From Desulfobacterales bacterium (GTDB lineage Bacteria; Desulfobacterota; Desulfobacteria; Desulfobacterales; RPRI01), in the NCBI GenBank assembly GCA_020052975.1, contig JAGVOC010000385.1, forward strand, positions 1-11,665: 11,665 nucleotides of DNA, written 5' to 3'. Below, piece by piece: positions 2,108-11,630 of this stretch (positions are counted from its first letter, which is position 1; each line of letters starts with the position of its first letter). The position numbers and the translations under genes are program-made. The notes under the pieces are model-generated. The model was given only the letters and a program-made list of their open reading frames with translations, made no database searches and had not been told where the DNA came from.

Positions 2108-3457
2108 TCAAAATTTTGTATCTACGTACATGCCTCTGCGGCCGGGACAAAGATTTCCATACTTGTCTTTATGTTTGTTGAGTTTCGGATTATTGGTTTT
2201 GTGGGTAAATCTTTTGCCGCAATGGCTGCATTCGAAAATGTATTGGGGGCCATAATTTGACGTAGTGCGTTTTGGTCTTCTGGTTGTTGATCTTATCCCC
2301 GGAGCAGTGAACCCAATATCTCTTGCTGTAGTCGGCGGAGCCGAGAGCGGACCTACCGTGGTCAACTCAACAGCATATCGTGGTGTGAACGGGGTCTTTG
2401 TTACTTCAGCGCCTTGGATTCTATCAACCCTGTATGATCTATTTTCACCGGTCTGATGCTTTACGGCATACAGTAACAAGTTCCCATCACGCGTCCGGCG
2501 TAATGAATAGGGCTCTATCAGGCGGCGACTTCCCTGGTAAACCAAGTTTACACACAGCCGGTTTGCAGCGGCATAGCGTATTATTTCAAGCGGTATCGAC
2601 GTGCGCCATGCAGTTGCCATTGCAGGCGGTTGCCATGTTGTATCAATTACTTGCCCCATAGATGAAATAGCAGGCGGTACCACTTTTTCAATTGCACGAT
2701 ATAACCATTCGAATATCTCAGGCAGTTCCTGCCAGAACTGTTCAAAAGGCGGCAATACAGGCACCTGATGTCCCAGCATATTTTCCCATTCAGTCTCTAA
2801 CTCAGCGCGTTCCGGCTTCCTCTCAAGACTTTCCACTGTTGGAACTGATATCCCTTTGAAAGCACATTTTCTTTCGAGGGTGCTCAAGATAAGTTCACGG
2901 CCCTGTCTTGTGCTGTCATGCCTGTAGAGATGGACCACATCATAAAGATCGCGAGGCCTTAGCCGTTCACCCAATGCCCTGATCTTCTCAGCAAAGACCT
3001 CCTCAAAGCAATAGCACGGAACATGTATGCCGCCTTCCGGTGTGTCAGAGTAAGGGTGAAACACTTCGCGGCTGACAGGGTCGAGCACCAGGACCTCATC
3101 GTCTGTAAGATCCAACTTTATGCGGGGAAGGTCCCCGCCCGGCTGTAAAGGTCCTCTGTAAGCAATTCTTCCTTGAACTGATATTTGCCCCCGGGGATTC
3201 TTGTAAACATCCAACCTGATCAGTTCGCGCGGGACTTCAATACCGGAAGCATCATAGACCCAGACTGCTATTTCTTTGAACGCGCCGATCAGGAAACTCT
3301 CGTCTTGATGTTCGGCCTCTGTAAGGGTAAAGTCCAGGTCTTCGGAAAAACGGTAGGTTTCAAAATAGCACTTCTTGAGACATGTGCCGCCCTTAAACGC
3401 CCAACTCGCGCTGAGTTCGGAGTGATTTGAAATCCCGGCCAACAACCAGCCGAGCAT
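2108..3457 (-). CDS. abiEii: AbiEii-type nucleotidyltransferase with WYL-like and zinc-finger domains (frame broken at 5' end)
   Basis: The uninterrupted frame from ATG 3457 encodes 449 residues. The N-terminal part is an AbiEii/AbiGii toxin-type nucleotidyltransferase: FKGGTCLKK at 21-29, RFSEDLDFTL at 36-45 with the acidic D40/D42 pair, and FAEKIRALGERLRPRDLYDV at 155-174. Known AbiEii proteins are toxins of type IV toxin-antitoxin pairs and block growth during phage infection. Unusually, residues about 290-362 resemble a WYL ligand-binding domain (LIEPYSLRR, then SYRVDRIQGA). The C-terminus has a CCHC zinc-finger-like module with C410, C413, H429 and C437. The gene originally began at GTG 3537, one base after the AbiEi stop. 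A 5-bp duplication at 3491-3500 shifts that frame, so about 25 N-terminal residues are lost unless translation restarts at ATG 3457. It is probably a recent pseudogene, or an assembly error. Confidence 0.85.
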   Translation of the reverse strand: MLGWLLAGISNHSELSASWAFKGGTCLKKCYFETYRFSEDLDFTLTEAEHQDESFLIGAFKEIAVWVYDASGIEVPRELIRLDVYKNPRGQISVQGRIAYRGPLQPGGDLPRIKLDLTDDEVLVLDPVSREVFHPYSDTPEGGIHVPCYCFEEVFAEKIRALGERLRPRDLYDVVHLYRHDSTRQGRELILSTLERKCAFKGISVPTVESLERKPERAELETEWENMLGHQVPVLPPFEQFWQELPEIFEWLYRAIEKVVPPAISSMGQVIDTTWQPPAMATAWRTSIPLEIIRYAAANRLCVNLVYQGSRRLIEPYSLRRTRDGNLLLYAVKHQTGENRSYRVDRIQGAEVTKTPFTPRYAVELTTVGPLSAPPTTARDIGFTAPGIRSTTRRPKRTTSNYGPQYIFECSHCGKRFTHKTNNPKLNKHKDKYGNLCPGRRGMYVDTKF

Positions 3458-3537
3458 ATAGTCTTTCTCTATGACATTCGCAGTAAGCCCAAACTAAACT
3501 CCCTGGAGAAGTCCGCTATCTCCTGCCGGTTGATCAC
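3458..3537 (-). pseudogene. out-of-frame original 5' end of the abiEii gene
   Basis: Directly after the AbiEi stop (one base gap), GTG 3537 has a well-placed AGGAG ribosome site inside the end of abiEi. It opens a frame reading VINRQEIADFSREF, a typical AbiEii N-terminus. This frame ends at TAG 3471-3469 after 22 codons. The correct continuation, GLTANVIEKDY, lies in another frame and leads straight into MLGW at 3457. Removing one AGTTT unit joins the two parts and restores a 474-residue protein. Translation might restart at ATG 3457, twelve bases after the premature stop. Confidence 0.85.
3491..3500 (-). repeat. 5-bp tandem duplication causing a frameshift
   Basis: The minus strand reads AGTTT twice in tandem (plus strand AAACTAAACT). 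With one copy, the sequence GAG TTT GGG CTT ACT GCG encodes EFGLTA and the toxin frame is continuous. With two copies the frame is lost. The exact tandem form points to slippage or duplication of a once intact gene. Confidence 0.8.
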
Positions 3538-3538
3538 G

Positions 3539-4345
3539 TCAGTTCTCCTTTACCCAGCTTTCCGGGACCCACAGCCTCCAGCGCGTTATCAATCTGTCGG
3601 CAGTAAGTGATGGATCAAGCTTAGTGTTTCCCTTCGTCAACTGAGCTTTGCATTCGCTTATGGCTGCTTTCTGATCAGGGGCATAGCGTTCTAACAGGAA
3701 CCCAAGGCGTTTAAAAACAGCGCCATTGTCCAGGCGTTTTGCATAGTCAATCAGAAGCTGCATATCTTTGTTCTCAGACTTAAGATAACTCAAGAACATG
3801 TCCACCGTCGGCCTTATCCCGCCGCCAAGCTTTGGGTCTAACAGCATGTCAAGGATAGTCCGGGAAGGATCAGAGACAGATATCTTCACCTGTCCTCTCC
3901 AAACCGGCTTTGTTCCGAAAAGCGCTTTCTCAGATATGGTCCGGAGCATAAAACTTGTTCCCTTAATAACAGGAGCGCGGTCTCTGGGCTTCTGTGTTGT
4001 GAGAACAACTACAGTGCGGAAAATCTGTTCGGTGAGGTCCCAGTATTCAGCGGCACTCCACCCACCGATATAGCAGGGTGAAAACAGCCTGTCAGCGATT
4101 ATCCATGGGTCGTCAACAGGTATATCTGCTGTACGGGATTCAAGTGGGACCTGGATATACAACCCCTGTTTCACCCGGGATAGCCATCCCTTTTTTGACC
4201 ATCGAGAGAGCATCTTCGCTGCATCGGATGGAGAAACCTTTAAAATATTGGCTGCGTCCCGTACCGAAACCGTTCCTTTCGTTTCACGGAATATGGCTGA
4301 TAACCTCTTCCTGTCTTCTTTTCCTAAACCTGAGATCGTTTCCAT
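3539..4345 (-). CDS. abiEi: AbiEi-type antitoxin and transcriptional repressor
   Basis: The 268-residue protein has the two-part layout of AbiEi antitoxins. An N-terminal winged helix-turn-helix spans about residues 10-65 (SVRDAANILKVSPSDAAKML followed by a KKGWLSRVKQGLY wing). A C-terminal antitoxin domain includes DDPWIIADRLFSPCYIGGWSAAEYW at about 78-102. In characterised AbiE systems this protein neutralises the AbiEii nucleotidyltransferase without direct complex formation. It also represses its own operon by binding inverted repeats in the promoter. Here it is the first gene, ends one base before the toxin's GTG, and supplies the toxin's ribosome site. A 24-bp imperfect inverted repeat lies six bases upstream of its start codon. 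No strong ribosome site precedes ATG 4345, only an A-rich leader. The frame is intact, so the antitoxin and repressor may still work although the toxin frame is damaged. Confidence 0.9.
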   Translation of the reverse strand: METISGLGKEDRKRLSAIFRETKGTVSVRDAANILKVSPSDAAKMLSRWSKKGWLSRVKQGLYIQVPLESRTADIPVDDPWIIADRLFSPCYIGGWSAAEYWDLTEQIFRTVVVLTTQKPRDRAPVIKGTSFMLRTISEKALFGTKPVWRGQVKISVSDPSRTILDMLLDPKLGGGIRPTVDMFLSYLKSENKDMQLLIDYAKRLDNGAVFKRLGFLLERYAPDQKAAISECKAQLTKGNTKLDPSLTADRLITRWRLWVPESWVKEN

Positions 4346-4564: not shown

Positions 4565-4584
4565 CAGCGAACCTCGGCCAAGCC
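4565..4584 (+). repeat. left copy of a 20-bp imperfect direct repeat
   Basis: The unit is CAGC.A.C.TCGGCCAAGCC, with an 11-base perfect core at 4574-4584. The second copy is at 6328-6347 in the same orientation, matching at 17 of 20 positions with all three differences being transitions. Together they bracket the DUF488, dual-OB and DUF488 genes. Confidence 0.5.
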
Positions 4585-4631
4585 CCCAGGAAACGATATT
4601 AAAAAAGCGATGACAAAATTATATTTACAGT

Positions 4632-4640
4632 TGGTATACT
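4632..4640 (+). promoter_or_regulatory. extended -10 promoter of the DUF488-like gene
   Basis: TG-G-TATACT at 4632-4640 is an extended -10. A partial -35, ATGACA, lies at 4610-4615 with a longer than ideal 19-base spacer. The start codon at 4651 is only ten bases past the -10, leaving about four untranslated bases and no room for a normal ribosome site. This is a second near-leaderless start in the window. Confidence 0.5.
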
Positions 4641-4650
4641 ATAGAAAAAA

Positions 4651-5082
4651 ATGGAACTGCATATTTATACCGCCCAGATTGGAAAATATAAAGGCCCGGA
4701 TGCCTACGATGTCACGGTAAAGAGTGGAGACATTAATTTTGCACCTACCTGGAATATCGTGCAAGCCTGGAAAGCAGGCGAAATAAGTTGGGAAACGTAC
4801 TCTCAGCATTACCGTGAATTAATGCTGAACAGCTATAAACGAAACAAACGAGCATGGCACGAGCTTCTCGGTAAAGGCGTTTTAACGCTCCTCTGTTATT
4901 GTCGGGCAGGTGATCATTGTCATCGTTACCTTCTTGCTGACTTTATTGTTAAGTTGGGTGGAAAAAACGGGGTCAATGTTATAAATGAAGGTGAACGCCC
5001 CTTGCCAGCTAAGGAAGAGGCAGTAGATACCAGAAGTAAAGACTATCCTCTCCTTGTTGGACAGCAGCAGAATCTATTCTAA
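4651..5082 (+). CDS. DUF488-like protein (short phage/plasmid-type form)
   Basis: The 143-residue product shows the hallmark C-terminal DUF488 signature LLCYCRAGDHCHRYLLADFI at 80-99, with C82, C84, C90 and H91. The N-terminal strand is IYTAQIGKYKGPDAYDVTV, and FAPTW follows at 30-34. DUF488 proteins are small, uncharacterised and widespread. The conserved Cys-His-Arg cluster suggests a catalytic or metal-binding site, but no reaction is established. The C-terminal 30 residues (DTRSKDYPLLVGQQQNLF at the end) look like a flexible tail. The gene converges on the dual-OB gene and their 3' ends overlap by nine bases, an arrangement that could produce antisense interference. A second DUF488 protein lies in the opposing operon. 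No clear ribosome site is present; ATG 4651 is favoured by the promoter position and by the typical MELHIYT start. Confidence 0.85.
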   Translation: MELHIYTAQIGKYKGPDAYDVTVKSGDINFAPTWNIVQAWKAGEISWETYSQHYRELMLNSYKRNKRAWHELLGKGVLTLLCYCRAGDHCHRYLLADFIVKLGGKNGVNVINEGERPLPAKEEAVDTRSKDYPLLVGQQQNLF

Positions 5083-5799
5083 TCGTATCCAATTATTGTA
5101 GTCGCTATCATAAAGATCAGGGAAGGTATGGATTCCGTTCACTTGTAGCCAACAACAGCCCCGGAACGGGCGCGAGAGACCGAGGCGAAGATATATACTA
5201 TGGTCCGCCAATTTACTATTTAATAGCTTTACAGTTTTTTCACAGTCACCCTTATATTTTGTCAGATAGAAATCAAATAGACCACGAAATGCCAAGTCGG
5301 TAATCGGCACGTTCTGAGTTACGTTCCCTCCATGGTCAACAATTCTCATTCGCAGACGAGGAGGATCTTTATAGTAATCGCATCGAAGAGAAGGAATCTC
5401 AGCCGGAATAAAGGTGCCGATCGAAGGCCCCGGTGATTCAAGAGGTACGCAGCGGTCCTGAATATTGGCGAATAATTCTACAATGGTTTGTCTGCCGGTT
5501 TGCGTTAAGATTTCCTTCCATCTCGTTGCTGTTATCCTTCCTATGCCTTCAATCGAGGCTTCTTCGAAAATGACATCCTCGACATGAGGCGGCTGAGAAA
5601 TCTGAGCACCAAATGTGAACGCAACCTTAGCGCCAGGGGATATGATAAGTTCGCCTTCCTTGAAGAGATGACTTTTAGTAATCTGACCTCTCGTCAGCAC
5701 CGGCCTTATACATGTCAAAGAATCATCATAACCGGCAATGCAAACGTTATCGCCGCTCATCGCAGTCACATCGGTAATTATGAGTGTCTTTCTTGGCAT
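5074..5799 (-). CDS. dual OB-fold (DuOB-like) protein
   Basis: The 241-residue protein begins MPRKTLIITDVTAMSGDNVCIAGYDD, with VCIAGYD at 19-25 and CIRPV at 30-34, and a further motif region ISPGAKVAF at 53-61. A second beta-rich half carries IPSLRCDYYKDPPRLRMRI at 135-153. It ends with YLRLGLSRPF and WLQVNGIHTFPDL. This layout matches, from memory, the dual OB-containing domain family, proposed to bind nucleic acids or nucleotides and found in predicted conflict and defence neighbourhoods. No catalytic motif is visible. It starts five bases after the stop of the upstream DUF488 gene, so both are one operon, with an AGGGA ribosome site immediately before the start. Its stop overlaps the end of the convergent DUF488-like gene. 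The family call is fairly firm; the role as sensor or substrate-recognition subunit is inference. Confidence 0.75.
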   Translation of the reverse strand: MPRKTLIITDVTAMSGDNVCIAGYDDSLTCIRPVLTRGQITKSHLFKEGELIISPGAKVAFTFGAQISQPPHVEDVIFEEASIEGIGRITATRWKEILTQTGRQTIVELFANIQDRCVPLESPGPSIGTFIPAEIPSLRCDYYKDPPRLRMRIVDHGGNVTQNVPITDLAFRGLFDFYLTKYKGDCEKTVKLLNSKLADHSIYLRLGLSRPFRGCCWLQVNGIHTFPDLYDSDYNNWIRLE

Positions 5800-5804
5800 A
5801 GTCC

Positions 5805-6269
5805 CTATAGATGCTCTATCGTATAATTCGTCAATATTTTTTTCTGTAAATATTCAGCGGTAAGCCGGCGATGGCATTTTTCAGCCGTCTTTTCACTACA
5901 TAGAAGAACTGTTGGCCCCTTGAGGAGTTCAGGTTTGATCTTAGTCTCCGCGTTTCGCTTTTCCAGGAGAGCCAAAAACTCTTTTTCATAACTCTGCCAG
6001 TCCTTGTCGGCCTGATATTTTTTTAACAGTTCCTTCGTCGGTGCAAGGTCAGTAATGTGATAATATTGGCCGTCAAGTATCGCCCTAACGAAGTAGGCGA
6101 GATCCTTCCCCTTAGTAAAACCGGCAAGCTGAGAGACATTGTTGAGACGGATATCCAGTAGAATTCTTATGCCAGCTCTTTTTAAGATCGTGAAAAACTC
6201 TTCTGCGCTTTTTCCCGTAAAACCAATGGTATAAAGTACTTTATTCTTTTGCATCGATGAAGTTTCCAT
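5805..6269 (-). CDS. DUF488 family protein
   Basis: The 154-residue protein has all main DUF488 motifs: LYTIGFTGKSAEEFF at 12-26, LLDIRLN at 37-43, and LLCSEKTAEKCHRRLTAEYL at 122-141 with C124, C132, H133, R134 and R135. DUF488 proteins are uncharacterised. The Cys-His-Arg signature is conserved across the family and is probably functional. I chose ATG 6269 rather than the longer frame from 6344 because a strong AAGGAAGGTGG ribosome site sits just upstream of 6269. The extra 25 residues (CCSSAFPATQ type) look non-coding. It is the first gene of a two-gene operon with the dual-OB protein. It differs clearly from the short DUF488-like protein at 4651-5082, so the module carries two distinct DUF488 branches. 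No obvious promoter was recognised upstream. Confidence 0.88.
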   Translation of the reverse strand: METSSMQKNKVLYTIGFTGKSAEEFFTILKRAGIRILLDIRLNNVSQLAGFTKGKDLAYFVRAILDGQYYHITDLAPTKELLKKYQADKDWQSYEKEFLALLEKRNAETKIKPELLKGPTVLLCSEKTAEKCHRRLTAEYLQKKILTNYTIEHL

Positions 6270-6327
6270 AATCCCACCTTCCTTATTTCTGTGCCTAAGC
6301 AATTGTGTCGCGGGGAAGGCCGAGCTG

Positions 6328-6347
6328 CAGCAAGCTTCGGCCAAGCC
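6328..6347 (+). repeat. right copy of a 20-bp imperfect direct repeat
   Basis: This is the second copy of the repeat at 4565-4584. It shares the perfect core TCGGCCAAGCC (6337-6347) and matches 17 of 20 positions overall. It lies between the DUF488 start and the DUF1998 remnant, exactly at the outer edge of the three-gene module. Confidence 0.5.
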
Positions 6348-6512: not shown

Positions 6513-9500
6513 TTATCCACCCCTGCGGTTTTCCTCAAAAATATCTGCAGGCATGAGGTGACGAAGTCGCCAGACCATTTTGATTGGCCGTTCACTCTCG
6601 TAACTCACACGTTCAGCAGGACCTAAATATGTAAACGGCGTGGTGATGCCATTTCTTTTCTTTGTAGCACGGACAAAGATCAATATAGTGTAGCCACGTT
6701 CCATATGATGAACGAGGTTGACTCCAGTATCGCTATTTTGTGTTGTGTTCGATTGAGATTCCCAATGTAGAAGTTGTCGACTGACGGGATAGTCAGCATA
6801 CATAGTACTCGGGGAGAACTCACGCTCAGTTTTCTGGAACGTAATGAGCAAGGCATAAGCTTTTATGTTTCTGAAATGAAGGACTCCAATCCCTGTAGGC
6901 CCTGATGATTCCAGCGTTGCCATACCAAGCGCAGCTTTAATATCTGAATTGCTATACTGAGCGTGAAGTTCCAAAGAACATGAGAAAGGTAACTCCGGAA
7001 TTTCCCCACTAATACGAGTTTCATCCTCAGCCCATTCAAAAACCTCTTTAAGGTCAGATAAGATATAAGGATTATTGGATAGTTGTTTAAATGAATCTTC
7101 GATGGTAGCAAACCCTAATTTTTTGCCCGGCATGTTCCATAATCGATAATGAATAGATAGAGCACTATCACCAGCCTCATCTAAAGCCCCTTGAATATCG
7201 TGTACGTGAAGTTTATCGATAGTACGGTGAAACAGTTTGATTTCTCTCGCCCCAGTTGTTAACGAAGCTCTTATAAGAGCACTTTTGAGATAGGGGAGAT
7301 CCGGATCTCTTGGTGGTTCAATGAGATGTGCCTTAGCTTTCCATCCTGCCCATGTCTCTTTGACAAGAAGAATCTCAGGCTCATAGTCATGGTATCGCAC
7401 AAAATTACTCAAGGTCAAAGGTTGGTTGGCTTCGTTCTCAAAGGTCTTAAGTCGTTCAGGGATTTGGACTGAGAGATTTTGTAAATTCTCACGGATGTTC
7501 TTAATGACATATTCTCGTGCAATGCGTTCAAGTTGTATAGAGCAACCAGCCGGAAGATGTGGAAAATCAAGGGCTACCTCACGATCAATGGCATAGCGAG
7601 TTTTCGGTAAGAGTGCTTTAAGCTTACTGTCAATTCGGTAACGACGATGTGCTTGCCCCACGAAATCGAGAACAGTCAGGCAATCCTTTTCAGGTGCATG
7701 GCGTAAACCTCGCCCCAACTGTTGCAAGAATACAGTAAGGCTATCAGTTGGACGAAGGAATAAAACTGTATTAACCTCAGGAACATCAAATCCTTCGCTG
7801 AGCACGTCTCGTGTAAACAAGAAGGTTATTTCCCCCTTCTTGAAATCATTTATGAGTGACGTTCTGATTCCATCATTGGTATTCCCTACAATAACGCCAG
7901 ATACTATTCCTTTCTCATTAAACATTTGTGCCATATATTCTGCATGCCTAACCGAAACACAAAAACCGATGCCTCTCACTAATGTCAAATCAGGCTCATA
8001 ACGTTGGAGTGCACTAAGAATAGCATCAAGCCGCTGGTTTGCAAGCACATGCGCACCAGTGTAAACCTTTTCTAATTCATTAATATCATATTTGCCATGT
8101 CTCCAAAACCTGTCAGCATCGATTGGTACAGGATCAGCAACTCCGAAGTAGTGAAAGGGGCAAAGTAATTTCTCTTCAAGAGCCTCAGGCAATCGGACTT
8201 CAGCCGCAAAACGGTTATCAAAATCAGCAGTAATGCTCTTTCCATCCATACGTTCTGGTGTTGCAGTTAGGCCAAGCAGAATTTGAGGTTTGAAATGGTC
8301 GAAAATAGAACGATAACTGTTTGATGGGCCGTGATGAACCTCATCAATGACGATGTAGTCATAAAAATCTGGACTTACCTGATCCCACAATTGGCGAGAA
8401 GTTAGCATATCCACTGAGCAGAATAAATGGTCCATACGGGTAGCTTCATAGGTGCCAACGAGCAGTTCACCAAAATCAGGTATGCGCAGCACATTCCTGA
8501 AAGTAGCCAATGCTTGTACCAATATTTCTTGCCTGTGTGCAACAAACAAGAGACGAGCCTGCCTGCTTAGTTTTTCAAAAAAGCGCTGGAAGTCGAAAGC
8601 AGCAATGATAGTTTTGCCTGTGCCTGTTGCAGCGATCACAAGATTCTTCCAGTGGGCAAAAACATTGCGCTCTGCTTGCAGTGCATCAAGTATACGCTCT
8701 TGGAAAGGATAAGGTCGGAGGTCAAAGAATGTGGCTGGAAAGGGAGTTTTTAAGCGGGCATAACCAATCGCTTCACGCAGAGGGATTGGGTCGCTGGGAT
8801 CAAAATTCAAAAACTCGTGACTATTCCAATAGGTCTCGAACTCAGCAGAAAACTTATCCAAAATATGTGGCATATCTTGAGCTGTTACCTTGAGATTCCA
8901 CTCAAGACCGCTTGTCATTGCTGCATGTGACATGTTCGCCGAGCCGATATACGCTGTAGAGAAACCAGAATTTCGTTTAAAGTGATATGCCTTTGCATGA
9001 AGTCGAGTTCTTTCTGTGTCGTATGATACCCTTACTTTGATATTCGGCATTTTAGCAAGCCATTCTATGGCAGGAGCATCGGATGCACCCATATATGATG
9101 TAGTAATTACTCTTACAGGAATATTACGTGTGAGAAGATCCTCAAAAACAAACATAAGAAGGCGCAAACCAGACCATTTGATGAAAGAAACTAAAATGTC
9201 TACTGCATCGGCAGATCGCAACTCGGCCTGTAATTCATGAACAAGCTGTGGTTCATGCGGTGAACCAGTGAACAAGCTGCTTTCGACAATTGAAGTTTCT
9301 GGGCGAGGGATATCTTGCTTGGCGTAATATGGTGGCGTTATTTCCGAGAGAACCGTTTTTTCAGCATTCACAAGTCTGTGCTTTTTAAGATAGGCTTTTT
9401 CGGCAGTACCTGAAAGAAGATCGATCAGGCGGTTACAGAGGTTAAGGCGTTCAAAAGAATCGGTTTCCTGTCGCAATGATTTCTCAATAACCTTAGCAAC

Positions 9501-9659
9501 AAAGGCAGCATAACGAGAAGGCTGTTCTTCAGTGTCAATCTTTGACAAAACAGACCGCAGCTCAGGATGTCGTATAAGCAAATCTTGGAGTTTTTCGTCG
9601 AGCAATGCCTCATAAATTCCGAAGGGTAGGATATTGTCATGCTGTGAAAAGGCGGACAT
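6513..9659 (-). CDS. PLD nuclease / superfamily 2 helicase / DUF3427 protein
   Basis: The 1048-residue protein has three parts. Residues about 125-285 form a phospholipase D-type nuclease domain with one HxK motif: H221 and K223, followed by IGSANMSHAAMTSGLEWN. Residues about 310-660 are an SF2 helicase. Its motifs are AATGTGKT (343-350, Walker A), DEVHH (439-443), LTATPERMDG (464-473), SEGFDVPEVNTV (621-632) and QQLGRGLR (646-653, arginine finger). The C-terminal part, to about 1045, matches DUF3427, with YADYPVSRQLLHWESQS (954-970), LIFVRATK and FTYLGPAERV. This PLD-DEAD-DUF3427 architecture is widespread, often in defence islands, and is predicted to translocate on and cut nucleic acid. 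All visible motifs are intact. An AGAGG ribosome site lies ten bases before ATG 9659. The cellular role is inferred. Confidence 0.92.
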   Translation of the reverse strand: MSAFSQHDNILPFGIYEALLDEKLQDLLIRHPELRSVLSKIDTEEQPSRYAAFVAKVIEKSLRQETDSFERLNLCNRLIDLLSGTAEKAYLKKHRLVNAEKTVLSEITPPYYAKQDIPRPETSIVESSLFTGSPHEPQLVHELQAELRSADAVDILVSFIKWSGLRLLMFVFEDLLTRNIPVRVITTSYMGASDAPAIEWLAKMPNIKVRVSYDTERTRLHAKAYHFKRNSGFSTAYIGSANMSHAAMTSGLEWNLKVTAQDMPHILDKFSAEFETYWNSHEFLNFDPSDPIPLREAIGYARLKTPFPATFFDLRPYPFQERILDALQAERNVFAHWKNLVIAATGTGKTIIAAFDFQRFFEKLSRQARLLFVAHRQEILVQALATFRNVLRIPDFGELLVGTYEATRMDHLFCSVDMLTSRQLWDQVSPDFYDYIVIDEVHHGPSNSYRSIFDHFKPQILLGLTATPERMDGKSITADFDNRFAAEVRLPEALEEKLLCPFHYFGVADPVPIDADRFWRHGKYDINELEKVYTGAHVLANQRLDAILSALQRYEPDLTLVRGIGFCVSVRHAEYMAQMFNEKGIVSGVIVGNTNDGIRTSLINDFKKGEITFLFTRDVLSEGFDVPEVNTVLFLRPTDSLTVFLQQLGRGLRHAPEKDCLTVLDFVGQAHRRYRIDSKLKALLPKTRYAIDREVALDFPHLPAGCSIQLERIAREYVIKNIRENLQNLSVQIPERLKTFENEANQPLTLSNFVRYHDYEPEILLVKETWAGWKAKAHLIEPPRDPDLPYLKSALIRASLTTGAREIKLFHRTIDKLHVHDIQGALDEAGDSALSIHYRLWNMPGKKLGFATIEDSFKQLSNNPYILSDLKEVFEWAEDETRISGEIPELPFSCSLELHAQYSNSDIKAALGMATLESSGPTGIGVLHFRNIKAYALLITFQKTEREFSPSTMYADYPVSRQLLHWESQSNTTQNSDTGVNLVHHMERGYTILIFVRATKKRNGITTPFTYLGPAERVSYESERPIKMVWRLRHLMPADIFEENRRGG

Positions 9660-9925: not shown

Positions 9926-10969
9926 CTATTTCCTTTTCTGCCACTCTGCGCTCTGTCCCCTTCCGAGACATTCGACCTTTCCCTCGTCACGCAGTTTTTT
10001 CAAAATCTGACGGATCAGGTCTACACTTACGCCGGGGCATTCTTTTTGAATATCAGCGATTCGAAACGGCCTAAGAGTCTTTTCTATTGCAGACCTAATG
10101 ATCTCCGTCTTGGCTCCTTTTGGCGACCGCAACTGCCCGACCCGCTCTTCGAATTCCTTGTAAGCAGTCTTGAGTGTGTATAGAACGTAGTTTATATATG
10201 GCCATGGGTCATGTTTCCCCTCATGCCAGCCCTGTGAACTTTGTTCAAGAGTCTCATAATACCGATCCTTGCTTTGTTCAATAATCCGCTCAATGCTGAT
10301 GTAACGGCCTGCATCATAACCAAGGTGATAGCATTGAAGCAGCAGAAGCAGCCTTGAAACTCGACCATTTCCATCACGGAAGGGATGGATAGAGAGAAAA
10401 TCGAGATTAAACGCTGCCATAGCAACTATCGGATGCACCCATCGTTCGCGAAGACATTGATGCCATAGGTCAATCAGCTCGGCCACAAATACCGGCGTCT
10501 TGGCAGGGGAAACCGTTCTGAATCGCAGACGCGAAGTCCCGTCAGGGTATTTCTCAATGATGTCGCTTTCTTTCTCCTTGTATTTACCGGCATCCCAAAT
10601 GTCACCTTTCGCCAGTCTGTGCAGCTTTAGGATCGTCTCCTCCGATACCGGCAGTTTTGCTGCCTGCTCGTGAATGAGCTTCAGCGCATTGCGATACCCT
10701 CGCACTTCTTCTTCATCGCGGTCGCGCAGATGCGATTTGCCAAACACGATAGTACGGATACGCGCATCAGCGACAGTCACACCTTCTATGCGGTTTGATG
10801 ATACGGCACTTTCTATCAACGCATGTTCCCTAAGAACCTTTAGCTTCTGAGGAGATTGCTTTGTGAAAAGCTCTTGTCTCCCGCGAGCTTCGCCGAGGTC
10901 TGACAGATACCACGACGTTATGCTTGGTACGGTTTCAGGCTTGATCGAGAATTGTTTTAAAGTCATCAT
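9926..10969 (-). CDS. Fic family protein, class II type, with C-terminal winged helix
   Basis: The 347-residue protein carries the complete Fic active-site motif HPFRDGNGRVSR at 195-206, with catalytic H195 and anion-binding G200-N201-G202-R203. Fic enzymes transfer AMP, or another NMP, from a nucleotide to hydroxyl groups of target proteins. An N-terminal inhibitory motif of the S/T-xxx-E-G/N type is present as S58-NRI-E62-G63. Its Glu normally blocks productive ATP binding, so activity is self-restrained. Residues about 283-345 form a winged helix-turn-helix (FRIADIQKECPGVSVDLIRQIL). This is a common three-part chromosomal Fic layout, often regulatory rather than a free toxin. ATG 10969 has a GGAG ribosome site ten bases upstream; the next codon is also ATG. 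No separate FicA-type antitoxin gene is adjacent. Its target is unknown. Confidence 0.93.
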   Translation of the reverse strand: MMTLKQFSIKPETVPSITSWYLSDLGEARGRQELFTKQSPQKLKVLREHALIESAVSSNRIEGVTVADARIRTIVFGKSHLRDRDEEEVRGYRNALKLIHEQAAKLPVSEETILKLHRLAKGDIWDAGKYKEKESDIIEKYPDGTSRLRFRTVSPAKTPVFVAELIDLWHQCLRERWVHPIVAMAAFNLDFLSIHPFRDGNGRVSRLLLLLQCYHLGYDAGRYISIERIIEQSKDRYYETLEQSSQGWHEGKHDPWPYINYVLYTLKTAYKEFEERVGQLRSPKGAKTEIIRSAIEKTLRPFRIADIQKECPGVSVDLIRQILKKLRDEGKVECLGRGQSAEWQKRK

Positions 10970-11011
10970 GATTGCTGCTCTCCATATGGCGCTTGATCCT
11001 GTTTCCCCACT

Positions 11012-11040
11012 ATTATAAAACCCATTATCAAGATAATCTT
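11012..11040 (-). promoter_or_regulatory. possible activator-dependent promoter of fic
   Basis: The minus strand has a perfect -10, TATAAT, at 11017-11012, giving a transcript start near 11005 and a leader of about 36 bases. The -35 position (11040-11035) reads AAGATT, a poor match, and lies in a small dyad AAGAT-A-ATCTT (11030-11040). Half-sites upstream at 11049-11086 would fit activation of a promoter with a weak -35. Confidence 0.45.
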
Positions 11041-11048
11041 ATTCTTCT

Positions 11049-11086
11049 CATGTCCACGTCATGGACACGTTAACAGAACATGTCCA
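11049..11086. promoter_or_regulatory. operator-like cluster of three TGTCCA half-sites
   Basis: TGTCCA (11051-11056) and TGGACA (11062-11067) form an inverted repeat with a 5-base centre. A third TGTCCA lies at 11081-11086. CATGTCCA occurs twice as a direct repeat with a 30-base period, about three helical turns. The cluster lies between fic and the HTH-nucleotidyltransferase gene, roughly 46 to 81 bases upstream of the predicted fic transcript start. Confidence 0.5.
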
Positions 11087-11093
11087 AAAAACC

Positions 11094-11630
11094 CTATATT
11101 TGGGCATCTCTGTTCCCATACAAAATTATTGAACCGAAAGATAGTGAGTGATAAAACATTATGTCTTCTTTCCTGAGCTTCTCTATTTTTTTGTCCTTCA
11201 AAAAAAGCAGTTTTGCATTCTTTACTTTTTTATTTACTTCAGATGTCAAAGAGGCAATTTTTGATTCTTTAACATCTTTGACCCTCACCCATAGATCCAC
11301 ATCCGAATCCTCTGTATTTTCGCCTCTGGCACAACTCCCGTACAACCCGACCGCGGTAACAAAGGGATATTTACCGAATATTCGCGTATCTATTCTTCTC
11401 ATGTTAAGCAGTATCTTGACTGCTTTAACAGACGCGTTATCAGCTACAACCAATTTGCCTTTCTCCTTTTTTAGTATCTGCTCATTAAGAAGTATCTGGA
11501 AATACTTGGAGACCAAACCTTTGCTTAACTTGAGTTGGGAGGCAATATTATTCACGCTGACGCTGCCCGTCCTGAAAATGACAGCCTCTAATATTTTTAT
11601 CCGCTGACTCGTTGAAAATAAACTTTCCAT
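11094..11630 (-). CDS. HTH-fused MNT-type nucleotidyltransferase
   Basis: The 178-residue protein joins an N-terminal winged helix-turn-helix (about residues 5-65; NNIASQLKLSKGLVSKYFQIL is the helix-turn-helix) to a minimal nucleotidyltransferase domain. The latter has the signature GSCARGENTEDSDVDLWV at 98-115, with G98-S99 and the metal-binding D110 and D112. Such fusions are common in bacteria and archaea. They may be DNA-bound regulators or act with HEPN-type toxins that the MNT domain AMPylates. No HEPN gene is visible downstream; the next gene is fic. The motif is intact, so transferase activity is plausible. The gene is AT-richer than its neighbours, suggesting separate acquisition. 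ATG 11630 is preceded by TTGGAGAC, a ribosome site at unusually short spacing, and by a dyad at 11642-11658. Confidence 0.85.
   Translation of the reverse strand: MESLFSTSQRIKILEAVIFRTGSVSVNNIASQLKLSKGLVSKYFQILLNEQILKKEKGKLVVADNASVKAVKILLNMRRIDTRIFGKYPFVTAVGLYGSCARGENTEDSDVDLWVRVKDVKESKIASLTSEVNKKVKNAKLLFLKDKKIEKLRKEDIMFYHSLSFGSIILYGNRDAQI

Follow-up and report, generated by a model that had tools for sequence, protein, structure and literature searches.

We analyzed a stretch of 11,665 nucleotides from a Desulfobacterales genome (contig JAGVOC010000385.1, forward strand), referred to here as the window. It carries three genes, designated A, B and C, that encode two different DUF488-family proteins around a dual-OB (DuOB) protein. 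An earlier note on this DNA had described the trio, and all three frames are indeed intact in the window. The module is real and recurrent, and it represents a variant of the candidate defense system PDC-M45, for which we found no characterization. New here is the pentapeptide QQNLF that closes gene A, a consensus for binding the replication sliding clamp (DnaN), which suggests a site of action. The genes and their landmarks are as follows.

4651-5082, + strand: gene A, a DUF488-N3a protein of 143 amino acids with a C.C.....CHR active-site motif and C-terminal QQNLF.

5065-5079, + strand: the QQNLF pentapeptide at the C-terminus of gene A, a predicted DnaN-binding motif that terminates a tail modeled with low confidence.

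5074-5082: the 9-bp overlap of the A and B stops, tail to tail.

5074-5799, - strand: gene B, a dual-OB (DuOB) protein of 241 amino acids, DuOB by its homologues.

5805-6269, - strand: gene C, a DUF488 protein of 154 amino acids from the ATG at 6269, matching PADLOC model PDC-M45C.

Genes A and B are transcribed convergently and their stops overlap by nine bases, as the earlier note had it, while gene C lies upstream of B on the same - strand. The frame of gene C is open upstream to a TTG at 6344 (5805-6344, - strand), but its start is better placed at the ATG because a 91% identical homologue, P0153, starts with the same residues; the Pfam and PADLOC profile scans of gene C were made with the longer, 179-amino-acid TTG form. 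Gene A matched Pfam DUF488-N3a (PF22751; 9.6e-16, 58.6 bits with a gathering cut-off of 27, profile positions 41-115 of 118) as well as DUF488, and gene C matched DUF488 (PF04343; 1.8e-23). The residues C90-H91-R92 were invariant in the gene A alignment (n = 25 sequences), as were C132-H133-R134-R135 in that of gene C (n = 29). We know of no established reaction for DUF488 proteins, widespread as they are. A DUF488-HTH fusion with the ParB fold occurs among CTP binders, as described in a literature excerpt. The count of sigma-70-like promoters between 4346 and 6530 was uninformative, at 4 compared with 4.4 in shuffles.

Gene B itself matched no Pfam model. A homology search returned 97 homologues, and among 35 aligned proteins (B and 34 of the 97) the Pfam model DuOB, PF22557, was matched by 25 (E <= 0.001). 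The same model found nothing in genome G001 despite the B homologue present there, so it misses this clade. The AlphaFold model of B has a predicted local distance difference test score (pLDDT) of 95, and OB-fold single-stranded DNA (ssDNA)-binding proteins head its Foldseek and VIA lists, all as weak matches. The suggestion in the earlier note of a nucleic-acid modification or processing system with an OB-fold subunit is plausible. The scan of genome contigs returned a single B homologue, in a metagenome-assembled genome of the Thermodesulfovibrionales, a group that we take to belong to the Nitrospirota; this copy (L001:8001-8522) is cut by an early stop near the contig end and is possibly decaying. 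We also saw DuOB proteins of ~400 amino acids, one fused to an HRDC domain (L017:754-1968) and another of similar length (L112:8401-9624).

Recurrent linkage of DuOB and DUF488 genes, for which the earlier note had proposed a neighborhood survey, was borne out in 295 genomes of the phylum Nitrospirota and 176 genomes of the order. DuOB matches were patchy in the phylum sample (12 of 295 genomes), and in all 12 a DUF488 gene lay directly upstream on the same strand. The order sample had a match in 19 of 176 genomes, nine of them new, and DUF488 stood beside DuOB in eight of the nine, the ninth being a decayed copy. Taken together, DUF488 adjoins DuOB in 20 of the 21 Nitrospirota genomes with a DuOB match. 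The third gene was M45B-like in 11 of the 21 and A-type in G068 and G133, both with the convergent order and 9-bp overlap seen in the window. No intact third gene was found in six (G005, G131, G183, G262, G325 and G351); the three of these that were scanned match PDC-M19, and G131 has a broken A-like stretch upstream. In one genome, G001, the contig ends at the DuOB locus. The convergent layout of the window, with its 9-bp overlap of A and B, recurs in L014 and L015, and the decayed A and B fragments of G363 (L108) still keep that overlap. DuOB and A homologues came from source records of equal length for 11 of the 97 DuOB proteins (control mean 0.69, maximum 4), and DuOB and C homologues for 19 of the 97 (control mean 1.7, maximum 6; best 120 of 7961 C homologues). 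All 11 DuOB/A coincidences involved the 48 DuOB proteins that share 49% identity or more with B; the 49 more distant ones had none.

It could be argued that A is a remnant or an independent gene that stands beside B and C by chance. Gene A does occur without B and C in G159 (L056) and G305 (L100), and in G356 (L099) a whole A is followed ~130 bases on by the contig end, these bases containing, by eye, just the last residues of a B end. We consider chance association unlikely, given that four loci, three divergent ones and a decayed copy, share the convergent layout and the 9-bp overlap and that the coincidence of record lengths for A and DuOB exceeds its control. In genome G340, A is partial and lies at the end of its contig, and the plasmid DUF488 matches of A (Pontibacillus, Enterobacter) have neighbors mostly annotated as hypothetical.

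The M45B profile matched 157 of the 295 phylum genomes at E <= 0.001, many of these being weaker, general DUF488 matches, and the loci viewed were the best 30. At six of the loci (L071-L074, L076 and L077) no match to C or DuOB lies within ~1.5 kb of the M45B-like gene. Short DUF488-N3a proteins that have neither a DuOB partner nor a QxxLF tail were found in L057 (6611-6994), L059, L060 and L061 amid many small unrecognized frames, and in L057 an SSB-like frame, recognized by eye, lies beside the gene.

The protein encoded by gene A ends in GQQQNLF, and residues 116-143 have a pLDDT under 50 in its AlphaFold model. The bacterial clamp-binding consensus is given as QL[S/D]LF or QxxLF in an excerpt of PMC12309361, and by this standard the QQNLF tail is a candidate sliding-clamp binder, a QxxLF motif in a tail predicted to be free. 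Of 55 A homologues, 41 have QxxLF within their final 12 residues. The other 14, all kept in the count, were P0124, P0125 (which ends QQSLL), P0127, P0129, P0133, P0137, P0141, P0145 and P0147-P0152, and many of them are short or distant. The second and third positions vary (QQN, QQS, QPS, QIA, QLS, QTS) while Q, L and F are fixed. Over the same 12 residues the motif was absent from all 97 DuOB homologues and from all of the best 120 of 7961 C homologues.

The motif recurs in most of the M45B partners from DuOB operons, being present in the last 12 residues of 8 of 11 (QESLF, QLSLF six times, QGSLF) and in the last 20 of 9 of 11, the ninth being QSDLF in G279, 20 residues from the end; the two without it are those of G132 and G352. 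The M45B-like protein of Rhodothermus has QLNLF 24 residues from its end, and the M45B protein of L076, which has no DuOB, ends in QGVLF. Of 11 further DUF488 proteins from the survey none has QxxLF, and it was seen in 1 of 382 other open reading frames of at least 100 amino acids in the fetched neighborhoods.

Several observations weigh against a clamp-docking tail. The long M45B proteins of the phylum survey have Q..LF in 4 of 14 cases (that of G132 included), the others having mostly xx[DE][LMI]F, and QxxLF is missing from the M45B proteins of Agrobacterium and Allochromatium and from four short DUF488-N3a proteins without DuOB. Moreover, the overlap with B dictates part of the LF-stop in linked A genes. 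Even so, the motif is kept in the A genes of L056 and L100, both of which lack B, and 59 bases separate the end of the L019 M45B gene from the next called frame. Our literature search, which did not reach Burroughs and Aravind 2023, found no report of a clamp-docking tail on these proteins.

We judge the chances evenly divided on whether the trio is a clamp-tethered, cysteine-dependent variant of PDC-M45 that acts on DNA ends or lesions together with an OB-fold DNA binder, in defense or in repair. From the motif and the folds we infer that A would dock on DnaN via its C-terminal QQNLF and that B would bind ssDNA or a DNA end via its OB folds. C and A, two enzymes with C...CHR cysteine active sites on a putative rhodanese/phosphatase-like fold, would then add a modification to a DNA terminus or lesion, or remove one, where a clamp is loaded, serving either to defend against foreign DNA as it replicates or to repair damaged DNA. 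A itself would fill the slot of an exchangeable third protein, which is of the DUF488/DUF4326 kind, in this case as a short, convergently encoded DUF488-N3a enzyme. We counted the HRDC fusion to DuOB in L017 in favor of a mechanism that acts on DNA. A broader proposal, to which we give somewhat less credence, is that DuOB/DUF488 candidate defense systems are clamp-tethered: their dissimilar third subunits (DUF488-N3a in this clade, M45B elsewhere) each end in a putative DnaN-binding motif, and the systems would survey DNA during its replication and chemically process the ends or lesions that they meet at clamps. To our knowledge no anti-phage system has a clamp-tethered mode of action, and none was among the matches listed in our literature search. 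A conserved clamp-docking tag offers a concrete and cheap handle on where such a system acts. If the reading is true, it would place an uncharacterized enzyme family at the replication fork or on clamp-marked DNA and link the chemistry of defense islands with DNA repair.

The surroundings of the trio look like a defense island, judged from the genes that flank it.

226-312: tRNA-Leu(CAA), on the left border of the island and a possible integration site.

2108-4345: AbiEi/AbiEii toxin-antitoxin pair, AbiEii with a C-terminal WYL domain.

6513-9659: PLD + SF2 helicase + DUF3427 protein, matching PADLOC mREase_IV (type IV methyl-directed restriction) at 3.7e-190.

9926-11630: Fic protein and HTH-nucleotidyltransferase (MntA/HalB-like, below cut-offs).

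L093:5995-6426 and L121:4995-5426, for comparison: DUF488 gene after uvrA in formaldehyde-related plasmid clusters (IncC, IncX5).

The trio is placed between the AbiE pair and the PLD-helicase-DUF3427 gene, and no integrase was present among the nine window proteins scanned. Elsewhere, restriction-modification genes lie beside the pair of L024 and near that of L016, and a ZorD/DpdE-like helicase gene lies ~2 kb before the L112 operon, which is again on the side of defense. The module might instead be a DNA-repair accessory that removes an adduct or resolves a damaged end during replication, its presence in defense islands being incidental, and we regard this as a serious possibility, though one that we would not favor outright. 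It is consistent with the placement of C-like DUF488 genes behind uvrA in clusters related to formaldehyde, on an IncC plasmid (50.7% identity) and an IncX5 plasmid (49.3%); plasmid records with a match numbered 134, of which these two were opened. In the gene table of the IncC plasmid, which is incomplete, nothing within 6 kb of the DUF488 gene is annotated as DuOB. The M45 operons of G135, G151, G328, G330 and G332 share, by eye, the same two upstream neighbors, as expected under vertical inheritance, and their neighbors look like housekeeping genes, again by eye. Clamp-binding motifs, too, are known from replication and repair proteins, according to an excerpt of PMC12309361. Repair is harder to reconcile with the place of the trio in the window, with the Agrobacterium, Allochromatium and Rhodothermus copies near genes of cyclic-oligonucleotide-based anti-phage signaling systems (CBASS) or clustered regularly interspaced short palindromic repeats (CRISPR), and with the patchy occurrence in 12 of 295 genomes. 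We rate defense and repair close, and clamp-tethered DNA processing is compatible with both.

A role in RNA-end or tRNA processing, in which the substrates of the DUF488 enzymes would be RNA termini or sugars derived from NAD and B would be an RNA binder, seems improbable to us. RNA, like DNA, is a ligand of OB folds, aminoacyl-tRNA synthetases are among the structure matches, and Burroughs and Aravind 2023 reportedly proposed that the superfamily includes RNA-end enzymes. Three features point to DNA: the motif for the DNA clamp, the fusion to HRDC and the proximity to uvrA.

The earlier note had also read the trio as an excisable unit bounded by a 20-bp direct repeat.

4565-4584, + strand: left repeat copy, CAGCGAACCTCGGCCAAGCC, 66 bases ahead of the gene A start.

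6328-6347, + strand: right repeat copy, CAGCAAGCTTCGGCCAAGCC, 58 bases ahead of the gene C start.

The repeat is there, at 17/20 matches (21/26 if extended), just outside the trio. It is weakly remarkable, and what sets it apart is solely that one copy lies in each flanking gap. Direct pairs matching at 17/20 or better number three in the whole window and 1 to 3 in each of 10 dinucleotide shuffles. By a post-hoc test, a pair this good with its copies in exactly these two intergenic stretches was reached in 1 of 1000 shuffles. Around the same convergent trio in L014 and L015 the repeat is absent, the best pairs there being 14/20 and 15/20, like those of five other loci tested, and its 11-mer core is absent from all eight loci tested. 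The earlier note had itself held that such a case, the genes present without the repeats, would count against it, and L014 and L015 present that case, so the claim of a repeat-bounded unit is not supported. We rejected the repeat as an att site or target duplication, likewise as unsupported, given the chance-level pairs in shuffles and the lack of a repeat at these two loci. That the trio is a mobile cassette, excised or inserted via this repeat, is thus very improbable, even though the repeat flanks the trio, the contexts of the trio differ among the window, L014 and L015, and G363 has a decayed copy. No recombinase was found among the nine window proteins scanned, and with the copies 66 and 58 bases ahead of two start codons, shared upstream sites or coincidence fit equally well.

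With known clamp-binding proteins, the comparison is confined to the tail. QxxLF at the extreme C-terminus is shared with transposases and polymerases (excerpts of PMC4549789 and PMC12309361), and this placement is described as typical of beta-clamp-binding transposases, with the Leptospirillum clamp among those tested (excerpt of PMC4549789); DUF488 proteins, however, are neither transposases nor polymerases, and their clamp binding is predicted from sequence.

Among defense systems, the earlier note had called the trio a candidate undescribed module, but its kind is already described: PADLOC-DB lists PDC-M45 A/B/C as DuOB + DUF488 + DUF488, and Pfam has both DuOB and DUF488-N3a. We take these Pfam names to fit the conflict systems of the RapZ-C-DUF488-DUF4326 clade, and Burroughs and Aravind 2023 are said to have predicted DNA-end processing for DUF488-N3/DuOB conflict systems. 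PDC stands for phage defense candidate in an excerpt of PMC11514479, and the term does not occur in the text of the PADLOC paper, PMC9252829. Our literature search found PDC-M45 as a catalog entry alone, with no paper by that name, no paper combining DUF488 with "dual OB", and no relevant paper on DuOB among the matches listed. A second catalogued system, PDC-M19 (PADLOC-DB), is likewise a DUF488 and DuOB-like pair, and the DuOB genes of L022-L024 match M19B, but it has two genes and a more distant DuOB, and the three of its DUF488 proteins that were checked have no QxxLF near the C-terminus.

The closest relative is PDC-M45 (PADLOC-DB 2.0.0), which has the same composition of a DuOB and two DUF488 proteins and whose M45C model is matched by gene C at 4.4e-55 (residues 37-178 of the 179-amino-acid form; profile positions 3-143 of 145). 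The window differs in that its second DUF488 protein, in the M45B slot, is the convergent DUF488-N3a protein A, which matches M45C weakly (1.3e-10) and M45B not at all, and in that B has no match to M45A, a model matched by 2 of the 35 aligned DuOB members. Because A matches no M45B model and B no M45A model, the trio is, by its profile matches, a variant of this candidate defense system and not a strict member. Nearer to the catalogued form, the first DUF488 proteins of L017-L021 match PDC-M45B at 1e-44 to 4e-84, and the DuOB gene of L063 matches PDC-M45A at 4e-95 and lies beside an M45B and a C gene; the M45A proteins of L063, L120 and L124 are DuOB by Pfam. The Agrobacterium plasmid pAt1D1108a (L120) has M45A-M45B-M45C within ~5 kb of CBASS genes, the Allochromatium plasmid pAt1 (L124) has a full PDC-M45 next to csm6, and Rhodothermus pRMAR01 (L125) has a related trio next to cas1/cas2 whose DuOB matches Pfam DuOB and no M45A model. 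On an Acinetobacter plasmid the third gene, after DuOB and DUF488, encodes a DUF4326 protein instead. DUF488-DUF4326 pairs were seen on small plasmids (L122:3355-5043 and L123:3995-5028), a DuOB gene preceding that of L122, where the DUF4326 protein also has an mSLOG domain. With third proteins of the M45B, A or DUF4326 type, the pattern is that of a constant pair, DuOB and a C-type DUF488, with an exchangeable third protein.
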